A stretch of DNA of 64,000 nucleotides from an uncultured Prevotellaceae bacterium (lineage in GTDB: Bacteria; Bacteroidota; Bacteroidia; Bacteroidales; Muribaculaceae). The notes beneath the pieces are model-generated. The model had not been told where the DNA came from, ran no database searches, and saw nothing but the letters and a program-made list of their open reading frames with translations. The DNA lies in NCBI GenBank assembly GCA_947165485.1, contig CAMVAP010000014.1, forward strand, positions 1 to 64,000, written 5' to 3'. This document shows, piece after piece, positions 11,401 to 16,060 of the stretch. Position numbers and translations under genes: made by a program. Position 1 is the stretch's first letter. Each line of letters starts with the position of its first letter.

Positions 11401-11559
11401 ATGAAGGCAAATATATACAGGCGTGAGCTTCAGTTTTTTAACAATGAGAAAAGCAAGACTCGACTCGGAACTCTTATTGAGGGTAACCCATACAGCTATC
11501 GTAACAAGCGCTTAGAATATCAAGTCTTGCACGGGGTTTGCAGGACACTAATGGTTTAA
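11401..11559 (+). CDS. Possible small ORF (52 codons) coupled to the FkbH-like gene
   Basis: An ATG at 11401 opens a 52-codon frame ending in TAA at 11557-11559. The GTG start of the FkbH-like gene follows without a gap, which would allow translational coupling. The product begins MKANIYRRELQFFNNEK and is basic and soluble, with no signal or membrane segment. I recognise no family. It may be a leader peptide, a small accessory protein or a chance frame. Confidence 0.35.
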   Translation: MKANIYRRELQFFNNEKSKTRLGTLIEGNPYSYRNKRLEYQVLHGVCRTLMV

Positions 11560-13302
11560 GTGTTAAGAATGCTTCAATTCAAGGAACTTAAGAAACTTCT
11601 CAAGAATATCCCATCAGGACTTCCTTCTGTCAAGATGGCTCTTGTGGGCGATACTGCGACCCAGTTCTTAGCTACGGCTATTAAAGGCATGGGTGTTGAG
11701 CGCGGTTTTTTTATTGATTTGTTTGAGGCTGAGTACAACCAGGTTGAGCGACAGTTGATGGATCCTACTAGTGATCTGTTTACGTTTGATGCCGATATGA
11801 TTGTCGTATTTCAGTCAACACACAAATTAGCTGAGTATCACAGCACGCTTTCTGTTGAACAGCAGCTATCGCTGGCTGATGATAGGTTATCATTTCTGAC
11901 TTCTATCTGTGAGAATCCCGCTTTTGCCAATAAGAAGATTATTTATTTCAATTATCCTGAGATAGAAGATGCGGTCTTTGGTAGCTACGCTAATAAAGTG
12001 ACTTCATCTTTGGTTTATCAAGTCCGCAAGCTCAACTATGAATTGATGAATGTGGCCCAGCGGTACCCCAACCTCTTTATCTGTGATATTGCAGGCTTGC
12101 AAAATAAGTATGGCCGAGACATGATGTTCTCATCTAATGTCTATGTCTCTACCGAGATGGTGCTGAGCTTAGACGCTTTGCCCTATGTGGCAGGCCGAGT
12201 AATGGATATCGTTTGTTCAATAAAAGGTAAATTTAATAAATGTCTGATTCTCGACCTTGATAATACTACATGGGGTGGAGTGATTGGTGATGACGGTATT
12301 GAGGGTATTCAGTTGGGGCATGGATTAGGAATTGGCAAGGCTTTTACCGAATTCCAAATGTGGGTGAAGAAACTCAAACAGCGAGGAATTATTATTTGTG
12401 TGGCCTCTAAGAACAATGAGGAGGTGGCCAAAGAGCCCTTTGAGAAACATCCTGATATGATATTGAGGCTCGATGATATCGCGGTATTCCAGGCCAACTG
12501 GGAAACAAAGGTTGATAATATCCGTACCATTCAAAGTATATTGAATATAGGTTTTGATTCCATGGTATTCTTGGATGATAATCCCTTTGAAAGAAATATG
12601 GTGCGTGAGAATATCAGTGGAATCACTGTGCCAGAACTGCCCCAAGATCCTGGAGACTACCTGGAATATCTTTATTCATTGAATCTCTTTGAGACGGCCA
12701 GCTATAGTAATGCTGATAAAGACCGCACTAAGCAATATCAAGTTGAAGCAAAACGTGTATCGTTAAGCAAGACATTCACCAACGAGTCAGACTTTTTAAA
12801 GTCCTTGAATATGGTATCTAACGTTAGTGGTTTTACCAAATTCAATACTCCACGAGTCGCACAGCTCTCTCAACGTAGTAATCAGTTCAACTTGAGGACG
12901 ATACGTTATACCGAGGCGGATGTCACAGCAATGGCCGCTGATCCTGATATTATCGACTTGAGTTTTACCTTGCATGATAAATTCGGAGACAATGGCTTGA
13001 TAGCGGTTGTGATATTAAAACCAATGGATCCCAATACCCTATTTGTGGACACATGGTTCATGAGCTGTCGCGTGTTGAAGCGCGGAATGGAGAATTTCAC
13101 CCTCAATACTATTGTGGAACGTGCTAGAGCGGCGGGCTATAAAAGAATTGTCGGTGAATATCTTCCCACTGCCAAGAATAAAATGGTAGAACATCATTAT
13201 TCTAATCTGGGCTTTAAGAAAATTCAAGGAGCAAGTTCAGATCTATATGAATTGGAAATAGATACTTATCAACCCAAAGAATGCTATATAGAGAAAGAGT
13301 GA
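11560..13302 (+). CDS. FkbH-like HAD-IIIC protein (carrier-protein loading enzyme)
   Basis: A 580-residue FkbH-family protein. Residues about 1-220 are an alpha/beta N-terminal region, as in long FkbH proteins. From about 226 comes the HAD-IIIC core: LILDLDNTTWGGVIGDDG (nucleophile DLDNT), VASKNNEE, and FLDDNPFERNMVR with the acidic motif. The last ~150 residues resemble a GNAT-type acyltransferase (YLPTAKNKMVEHHYSNLGF). Characterised FkbH proteins take 1,3-bisphosphoglycerate, remove a phosphate and load a glyceryl group on an acyl carrier protein. A carrier protein gene follows 116 bases downstream, then MBOAT and SGNH-like genes. The start is GTG at 11560, or ATG at 11569. A+T-rich, probably acquired. 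Confidence 0.85.
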   Translation: MLRMLQFKELKKLLKNIPSGLPSVKMALVGDTATQFLATAIKGMGVERGFFIDLFEAEYNQVERQLMDPTSDLFTFDADMIVVFQSTHKLAEYHSTLSVEQQLSLADDRLSFLTSICENPAFANKKIIYFNYPEIEDAVFGSYANKVTSSLVYQVRKLNYELMNVAQRYPNLFICDIAGLQNKYGRDMMFSSNVYVSTEMVLSLDALPYVAGRVMDIVCSIKGKFNKCLILDLDNTTWGGVIGDDGIEGIQLGHGLGIGKAFTEFQMWVKKLKQRGIIICVASKNNEEVAKEPFEKHPDMILRLDDIAVFQANWETKVDNIRTIQSILNIGFDSMVFLDDNPFERNMVRENISGITVPELPQDPGDYLEYLYSLNLFETASYSNADKDRTKQYQVEAKRVSLSKTFTNESDFLKSLNMVSNVSGFTKFNTPRVAQLSQRSNQFNLRTIRYTEADVTAMAADPDIIDLSFTLHDKFGDNGLIAVVILKPMDPNTLFVDTWFMSCRVLKRGMENFTLNTIVERARAAGYKRIVGEYLPTAKNKMVEHHYSNLGFKKIQGASSDLYELEIDTYQPKECYIEKE

Positions 13303-13418
13303 CTAGGATAAGTTGTTGTGTGGATGCTCTTGTCATTCATGGCGGCAGCTATATATAGTCGGGCAAAGTGCCTTTTTCTGATTCCTGATGGAGCGAATTT
13401 AACTTAATTAAGAATATT

Positions 13419-15136: not shown

Positions 15137-15142
15137 ATCGGT

Positions 15143-16060
15143 ATGCTGAAAAAGTTTATATTCTTATTTCTAACATTCTGCCTGTTATATGTGTCCATGA
15201 TGGCGGCAGCAAAAGCCTTCTGGGTGACTACTGCACCTGGCCGATTAGAACGTAATGTTATTGATAAAGATGTACATACGCTCGTGATAGGCCCTTCCAA
15301 TGGAGAACATGCTTGGAATGATTCTATAATCCCACATTCATGTAACCTGTGTAATAGCGGAGTCAGTTTGGGCGTGGGTTACAACAGCCTCAAGTGGGTC
15401 ATGGAGTATAATGACGACATTCATATTGATACGGTTATCGTTTGTGCTGGCTTTGCCTCTTTTATCTATCTGGAAGATAAGAAGTTACCAATTCCTGGAG
15501 CATCTGAAGAGATATTCTCGATATTAGATTATAAGAATTTTTTAAAGTTTTATTCCACCAAATTGTCTTTCTGGAAGAGTTCCTTCACATCATTGCCCTT
15601 ATGGTGGTTTTCATCTAGGAAACTGGGAGGCGGCTATCATTATATTGATAGGGAAAAGGTGAATCACCCCCGGTCATACGATATAATCAATGCTATCATA
15701 AAGAGTTTTGGCGGAAAATATGGCGTAACAGAAAAGAAACTCTATGAGAAGTGTTCATATCAGATTTCTTATTTGAGAAAAATTAAAGAATATTGTGATA
15801 GTCACCACATGACGTTGATTATTCTAAGTACCCCTGTTTATAAGTACCATGAGTTGTTGGATGATACCGGATACCGTCAAATGATGCGTAATGTGCTTGG
15901 TGACAGCGCGCTAATAGCCGATTATTCAAGGTTTCATCTCCCTGATTTAACTTATTATGGTGATCTTGAGCATACCAATTATAAAGGGGCTAGGTACTTT
16001 AGCCATCATATAGCGAAGGAAGGGCTTAAATTACAGTATGCCATTGACTATATAAAATAA
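15143..16060 (+). CDS. SGNH/DltD-like membrane-anchored protein
   Basis: A 305-residue protein with one N-terminal membrane anchor (residues about 5-27) and an SGNH-hydrolase-like periplasmic domain. The nucleophile block is GPSNGEHAW (about residues 50-58). The catalytic pair fits D274 and H277 in GDLEHTNYKG, the DxxH pattern shared with DltD, AlgJ and AlgX. The remaining sequence is divergent. It closes the four-gene cassette and should act beside the MBOAT protein in accepting or delivering the acyl group outside the membrane. It could instead be a de-acylase; gene order favours an acyltransferase partner. Confidence 0.75.
   Translation: MLKKFIFLFLTFCLLYVSMMAAAKAFWVTTAPGRLERNVIDKDVHTLVIGPSNGEHAWNDSIIPHSCNLCNSGVSLGVGYNSLKWVMEYNDDIHIDTVIVCAGFASFIYLEDKKLPIPGASEEIFSILDYKNFLKFYSTKLSFWKSSFTSLPLWWFSSRKLGGGYHYIDREKVNHPRSYDIINAIIKSFGGKYGVTEKKLYEKCSYQISYLRKIKEYCDSHHMTLIILSTPVYKYHELLDDTGYRQMMRNVLGDSALIADYSRFHLPDLTYYGDLEHTNYKGARYFSHHIAKEGLKLQYAIDYIK

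Follow-up and report, generated by a model that had tools for sequence, protein, structure and literature searches.

A putative carrier-protein-dependent surface acylation cassette with an FkbH loader in an uncultured Prevotellaceae bacterium, and exchangeable tailoring genes in its relatives

The first 64,000 nucleotides of contig CAMVAP010000014.1 (assembly GCA_947165485.1, from an uncultured Prevotellaceae bacterium), a stretch referred to here as the window, carry four consecutive + strand genes that extend from 11560 to 16060 in the list of open reading frames (ORFs). They encode an FkbH protein, a stand-alone acyl carrier protein (ACP), an MBOAT acyltransferase and a membrane-anchored SGNH-like protein, and together they probably constitute a carrier-protein-dependent surface acylation pathway, in which a glyceryl group loaded by FkbH would be shuttled by the tail of the MBOAT and transferred by the SGNH protein. 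Judging from its family, FkbH would take glyceryl from D-1,3-bisphosphoglycerate, remove the phosphate and load the phosphopantetheine arm of the ACP. By analogy with PatA and DltX, the MBOAT would receive the acyl group on the cytoplasmic side, from acyl-ACP, and place it on the Tyr of its own C-terminal FxYxxF tail; the SGNH protein, by analogy with PatB and DltD, would accept it on Ser52 and pass it to an acceptor outside the inner membrane, probably a glycan. The gene set with its short gaps, the carrier Ser39 and the A+T-rich block after tRNA-Gln had been described in a first-pass annotation of this DNA and are borne out by the ORFs, the tRNA and the G+C content. The unexpected part, beyond that first reading, is a series of exchangeable tailoring genes in related cassettes, whose products probably alter the acyl group before export. 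The components of the window cassette are listed below.

11560..13302, + strand: FkbH, HAD-IIIC glyceryl transferase/phosphatase-type loader, 580 aa from GTG (TIGR01686, FkbH_N, PDB 3slr)
13419..13655, + strand: stand-alone ACP, 78 aa, phosphopantetheine site Ser39 in WDSL (PP-binding, 1e-9)
13667..15136, + strand: MBOAT acyltransferase, 489 aa, with C-terminal acyl-shuttle motif (MBOAT, 6.5e-13)
15116-15133, + strand: FIYFNF acyl-shuttle motif of the MBOAT (aa 484-489, Tyr486)
15143..16060, + strand: putative SGNH/DltD-like acyl receptor with N-terminal membrane helix, 305 aa (from residues and predicted fold)

The intergenic gaps are 116, 11 and 6 bp. For FkbH, an ATG at 11569 is a likelier start than the GTG at 11560, because the match to 3slr begins at residue 4.

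On the donor side, the FkbH domain scores 297.4 bits with TIGR01686 (cut-off 146.65), which places the protein in the FkbH family. It also matches FkbH_N (E 5.7e-88) and is closely related to BF1531 of Bacteroides fragilis (PDB 3slr, E 2.7e-177), labelled in the PDB as an uncharacterized protein. The host is a Prevotella-like rumen bacterium with an assembly (G000) of 3.03 Mb, and among named records the FkbH protein is most similar to that of an uncultured Prevotellaceae metagenome-assembled genome (86%). Residues D232, D234, W238, K317, D339 and the triplet S502-C503-R504, in which C503 is presumably the catalytic Cys, are identical in all rows of an alignment of 93 FkbH sequences (the window, 80 related loci defined below, three more from the genus, five distant paralogues and four from plasmid records). 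The HAD aspartates and the Cys are common to a Streptomyces FkbH among the plasmid-record rows, which adjoins genes for an acyl-CoA dehydrogenase, a 3-hydroxyacyl-CoA dehydrogenase, a carrier, FkbM and a polyketide synthase (PKS) in a methoxymalonyl-type operon. FkbH homologues load a discrete ACP with glyceryl that they take from 1,3-bisphosphoglycerate, as stated in a passage of PMC3625739, and passages in PMC7489565 and PMC8949500 also describe this loading. In having an FkbH and a discrete ACP, and in the HAD and Cys residues common to the Streptomyces example, the window pair resembles those of methoxymalonyl-ACP and tetronate biosynthesis (FK520, Tmn16/Tmn7a, Mad7/Mad8), but the latter feed polyketide synthases, whereas the window pair sits with a membrane acyltransferase and an SGNH protein.

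FkbH proteins are best known from PKS and nonribosomal peptide synthetase (NRPS) clusters, and the cassette could be read as a small-molecule (PKS/NRPS-like) pathway that acylates a secreted metabolite and not the envelope. Suomilide clusters hold an FkbH-like domain and an MBOAT together (a passage in PMC13122637), and another contig of the genome contains a 2206-aa open frame (G000:C6:83134-87618), probably for an NRPS-like protein, in which two adenylation stretches resemble DltA (286 and 262 bits, both under the cut-off). This reading is nevertheless very improbable, with no PKS/NRPS-like gene recognised among the window ORFs of 7-22 kb and with an SGNH partner and a shuttle tail that belong to envelope acylation. 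The earlier observation that PKS and glycosyltransferase genes are missing nearby is uncontradicted as far as it was followed: neither occurs among the Pfam matches of four flanking genes, the window ORFs not having all been Pfam-scanned, and seven profiles built from relatives' loci detect no glycosyltransferase, Glf, flippase or AT3-like protein in the whole window.

Conservation of the set was assessed in the best 80 of 91 FkbH loci from a scan of genome contigs, selected by likeness to the window FkbH (individual loci are designated by L numbers). Within 5.5 kb of FkbH, an ACP gene occurs in 77 of the 80 loci, an MBOAT gene in 71 and both in 69; the three loci without ACP end soon after FkbH. 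The lack of co-conservation that the first-pass annotation had named as the adverse outcome is absent, since FkbH, ACP and MBOAT recur together in these 69 relatives. Because the 80 loci were chosen by likeness, a wider sample of the phylum was drawn (391 other genomes, FkbH threshold E <= 1e-120), which yielded six FkbH loci, all with a nearby ACP gene. Of 24 other genomes in the genus, five have a close FkbH. Outside the phylum, ACP, FkbH and MBOAT genes stand together in the two Alphaproteobacteria plasmid records inspected (L125, L126), with a VOC gene as well in the Rhodobacteraceae record. Named isolates with a cassette are Prevotella aff. ruminicola Tc2-24 (with MaoC and SDR genes) and Prevotella sp. 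tf2-5 (with VOC). In 12 loci (L053, L054, L059-L062, L066, L067, L070, L077, L102, L106), the ACP-MBOAT genes are convergent to FkbH; VOC follows FkbH in 11 of these 12, and most lie near a polysaccharide deacetylase-like or SASA esterase-like gene.

On the transfer side, the window MBOAT (Pfam E 6.5e-13) ends in FIYFNF, and an FxYxxF tail is present on all 78 complete MBOATs of the relatives' loci. H290, H332, F484, Y486 and F489 are invariant in 26 MBOATs picked from 74, so that two marks of PatA/PatB-type enzymes, a His conserved in the MBOAT domain and an FxYxxF at the C-terminus, are found here. The predicted structure (pLDDT 84.4) has DltB as best match (E 7.7e-13), a likeness also visible by sequence; the score with the DltB equivalog TIGR04091 is 184.4 bits, below the cut-off of 375. 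A gene of at least 230 aa directly follows 70 of 76 FkbH-near MBOATs (one is FkbH itself and one has 751 aa), and in 57 of the 70 a simple pattern finds both the Ser and the DxxH motifs. For the fourth protein of the window, an alignment of 27 sequences picked from 69 shows Ser52 and His277 in every row and Asp274 in at least 90% of the rows. By residues, it thus has the Ser-Asp-His of the SGNH partner in PatA/PatB-type systems, the fold match alone being weak. Its model (pLDDT 86.8) contains a predicted helix at 2-34 and an SGNH-like core.

Two known systems frame the interpretation. In the peptidoglycan O-acetyltransferase PatA/PatB, as described in passages of PMC12148441, an MBOAT with a C-terminal FxYxxF tail likewise has an SGNH partner, PatA auto-acetylates the Tyr of the motif and PatB can use the acetylated peptide. 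PatA uses acetyl-CoA, whereas the window set includes a carrier gene and a loader gene. With the Dlt system of teichoic acid D-alanylation (DltA, DltC, DltB, DltX, DltD), the cassette shares a carrier, an MBOAT of DltB fold, an SGNH/DltD-like receptor and the FxYxxF motif. It differs from Dlt in its loader, FkbH in place of the DltA ligase, in its Gram-negative host and in its motif, which in Dlt is carried by a separate protein, DltX (a passage in PMC12148441), and is here fused to the MBOAT, as in PatA. DltA is absent from the cassette, and no match in the genome (92% complete) reaches the TIGR01734 cut-off of 559.85 bits, the highest score being 286.1 bits, in the 2206-aa frame; no DltX gene was seen in the three gaps between the four genes, short ORFs elsewhere not having been searched. 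By the features tested, the cassette belongs with MBOAT-SGNH acyltransferases and FkbH loaders, not with Dlt. It probably works like Dlt nonetheless, with FkbH replacing DltA and the DltX motif fused to the MBOAT, since the MBOAT ends in FIYFNF and lies in a carrier-linked clade. The Dlt-like logic proposed in the first-pass annotation is in this sense upheld by gene order, catalytic residues, shuttle motif, MBOAT clade and conservation, with the amendment that the MBOAT-fused motif takes the place of DltX. An earlier report of the FkbH-ACP-MBOAT-SGNH set was not found in the open-licence literature searched.

The clade in question comes from a quick maximum-likelihood tree of 82 MBOATs, in which the window MBOAT and 61 others group with a support of 99. 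Sixty of these 62 are labelled ACP-adjacent, and the two exceptions (L068, L074) are labelling faults, the ACP overlapping a neighbouring ORF in both. The sister group consists of nine MBOATs without adjacent ACP, namely the extra MBOATs of L028, L057, L058, L064, L085, L089 and L097 and two paralogues from the genome itself; five ACP-free MBOATs also lie outside both groups, and most outsiders are on long branches. Because the ACP-linked MBOATs form a clade of their own, the tree favours an adaptation of these enzymes to a carrier-bound donor. This bears on the rival explanation that the MBOAT and the SGNH protein are an ordinary acetyl-CoA-dependent O-acetyltransferase like PatA/PatB, to which FkbH and ACP, serving another pathway, are merely adjacent. 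Non-Dlt bacterial MBOAT-SGNH pairs are regarded as carrier-free users of acyl-CoA (a passage in PMC12148441), FkbH-ACP pairs also occur without MBOAT, and three further MBOAT genes of the same genome (L108 8295-9740, L109 8182-9579, L110 7957-9462) have no recognised ACP gene beside them. Mere adjacency is, however, quite unlikely given the joint occurrence of FkbH, ACP and MBOAT in 69 of 80 loci and the separate clade of carrier-linked MBOATs. After two of the three further MBOAT genes comes a gene for 335-347 aa.

The FkbH-ACP pair itself appears to supply acyl groups more generally, the MBOAT route being one outlet among others, because FkbH-ACP loci without MBOAT include glycan settings. 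The accompanying genes in these settings are nucleotidyl transferase, FdtA and DegT (L050) or Wzt-type ABC and GT2 (L203); a further locus without MBOAT, L201, has a GNAT gene. A second, distant FkbH-ACP pair occurs in the genome of the window (L107, G000:C4:50001-70000, 1109-11579), near KAS III-like, ATP-grasp (sugar-transfer associated), DegT, VOC-like and GT2-like genes, and similar arrangements are found in L116-L122; KAS III next to FkbH-ACP is reminiscent of tetronate chemistry. A distant FkbH (32-40% identical) is present in 15 of the 24 other genomes of the genus.

The relatives vary in what accompanies the constant FkbH-ACP pair. Sorted by profile, the 80 cassettes comprise 28 with VOC, 22 bare (23 with L068), 17 with MaoC/SDR, seven with a transketolase-like gene and six others. 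Neighbour families were named from single Pfam-scanned cluster representatives, and the N-terminal partner of the transketolase-like protein and most AT3 labels by reading only. VOC and MaoC never co-occur (28 and 23 loci, none shared; Fisher p 5.7e-6, relatedness ignored), a count that leaves out a VOC-like ORF lying downstream of L047 on the opposite strand; SDR accompanies MaoC in 19 of 20. On an FkbH tree built by a quick method from 85 rows, the five cassette labels need 31 changes versus 43.8 for shuffled labels, and the well-supported branches alone force at least seven changes for VOC, seven for MaoC/SDR and nine for bare cassettes. The clearest exchange can be followed at nucleotide level. 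L028 and L029, whose FkbH proteins are 98.1% identical, have DNA that is 94% identical to the FkbH stop codon; past it, one carries MaoC-SDR (1172 bp) and the other VOC (409 bp), and the sequences are alignable again (71%) from 5 bp ahead of the ACP gene, with ACP 94% and MBOAT 81% identical. At the same junction, MaoC-SDR is present in one and absent from the other of L046 and L049. By eye, remnants of tailoring genes were not found in the FkbH-ACP gap of the window and 10 bare relatives.

The exit side is exchanged as well. Identities were compared part by part among the window and 59 loci in which the four parts are all present. For 428 locus pairs with FkbH 80-90% identical, the median identity is 80% for ACP, 54% for MBOAT and 15% for SGNH; for 28 pairs with FkbH more than 90% identical, these medians are 96, 87 and 76%. 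The acceptor side (SGNH) is exchanged between related cassettes.

These arrangements suggest that the donor, glyceryl-ACP, is shared and that its acyl group would be brought to its final form by swap-in enzymes. The MaoC protein is closest to the (R)-specific enoyl-CoA hydratase 1iq6, and could dehydrate glyceryl-ACP to an enol-pyruvyl form, while SDR could reduce pyruvyl to lactyl; the loading module of bryostatin is a possible precedent for the formation of lactyl by MaoC and SDR, and no paper joining bryostatin to FkbH was found among the search results listed. The nearest matches of the VOC protein, 2qh0 and 3hdp, carry the labels lactoylglutathione lyase and glyoxalase I, and the enzyme could epimerise or isomerise glyceryl-ACP or form lactoyl-ACP from methylglyoxal. 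The transketolase-like gene and its partner ORF lie beside MaoC at FkbH loci L040, L057, L063 (partner only), L064, L072, L079 and L096; the one such gene scanned contains Transket_pyr and Transketolase_C, so that a thiamine pyrophosphate-dependent step is possible in an acyl-carrier pathway. A modular surface 'C3-acyl code' fed from glycolysis is tentatively proposed on this basis, with a constant FkbH-ACP pair and, according to the enzymes added, D-glyceryl (none, as in the window), an epimerised or isomerised group (VOC), lactyl (MaoC and SDR) or a further change (transketolase-like), the exchangeable MBOAT-SGNH exit deciding the acceptor.

For the window cassette, which is bare, with no VOC, MaoC, SDR or transketolase-like gene, D-glyceryl is the simplest prediction because tailoring genes are absent. 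The glyceryl reading of the first-pass annotation therefore holds as a simple prediction for this cassette and does not extend to the whole family, in which relatives carry interchangeable tailoring enzymes. An exported acyl group other than glyceryl would arise if FkbH loaded something else, or if enzymes encoded elsewhere in the genome converted glyceryl-ACP, e.g. to lactyl. Relatives with nearly the same FkbH carry MaoC and SDR or VOC, the specificity of FkbH is not readable from sequence here, and its extra N-terminal domain, FkbH_N, received no function in the searches made. Such an alternative is judged unlikely, as the catalytic residues match those of the Streptomyces FkbH of the methoxymalonyl-type operon and the window cassette lacks tailoring genes.

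The acceptor is likely a surface glycan: in 24 of the 80 loci, including 11 of the 28 VOC loci, the flanks retrieved contain genes for a glycosyltransferase, Glf or a flippase. Several observations weigh against the proposed FkbH-to-SGNH pathway. Glycan genes are present in the retrieved flanks of only 4 of the 22 bare loci, and none were found near the window cassette. MBOAT is missing from nine of the 80 loci, among which L063, L078, L093 and L104 are short or unexplained cases, and L050, L072, L073, L082 and L097 have about 8 kb of downstream sequence and still no MBOAT; in the phylum sample, MBOAT is near only three of the six FkbH-ACP loci. The fourth protein has no Pfam or NCBIfam match at E 0.01, and the top PDB matches of its model, SGNH/GDSL enzymes and DltD, are weak (E about 0.003, TM-scores 0.3-0.5); it is called SGNH/DltD-like, weakly, from conserved residues and predicted fold. 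Six ACP-adjacent MBOATs from distant loci fall outside both the carrier-linked clade and its sister group, and the trees are quick ones.

The surroundings of the cassette include two further features.

10828-10901: tRNA-Gln, 658 bp ahead of the first codon of FkbH
11179..11214, + strand: candidate promoter, NTTG-N24-TANNTTTG, a single match between tRNA-Gln and FkbH (weak)

The consensus NTTG-N24-TANNTTTG is one that we take to be of Bacteroidota type. The orthologous locus L111 also has a match between tRNA-Gln and FkbH, and 4.65% of 2000 shuffles of the interval contain one, which is weak support. The interval delimited in the first-pass annotation opens 159 bp ahead of the first codon, where no ORF of at least 60 aa is found. 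The cassette block has a G+C content of 37-42%, compared with about 51-60% in the adjoining 8 kb to the left and right; a similarly low value (40-43%) is found in the opening 1.5 kb of the window. Flanking genes encode, by Pfam, SIS-domain, DUF2752, CD225/GYF_2 and phospholipase A1 proteins and, as named by reading, TyrS, a DUF554-like protein and an alpha-N-acetylglucosaminidase. Proteins of the CD225 + GYF_2 kind (16546-17100 in the window) occur at three places in this genome and at up to nine in one relative. TyrS and tRNA-Gln are neighbours in several genomes of the genus, where the genes that follow them differ, and a tRNA scan of 24 of the 80 loci detected one in L027 only. A mobile element at tRNA-Gln is not claimed, no integrase being recognised among the ORFs by eye, without a profile search.

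The proposed pathway, if correct, would add to Dlt another acylation pathway that runs on a carrier protein; MBOAT/SGNH pathways other than Dlt lack a carrier according to a passage in PMC12148441. It would also be a candidate source of glyceroyl groups on Bacteroidales glycans. In the O-glycan of Tannerella forsythia, a glyceroyl group is carried by pseudaminic acid, and the candidate gene 'remains elusive' in the wording of PMC6120980; the likeness is a glyceroyl on a Bacteroidales surface glycan, and the difference is that it is amide-linked there. The natural exchanges between L028 and L029 and between L046 and L049, together with the cassettes of named isolates, make the idea of donor tailoring directly testable. 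The pathway would also make surface decoration in gut and rumen Bacteroidota draw directly on a glycolytic intermediate, and under a C3-acyl code surface chemistry could change by swapping one or two genes.

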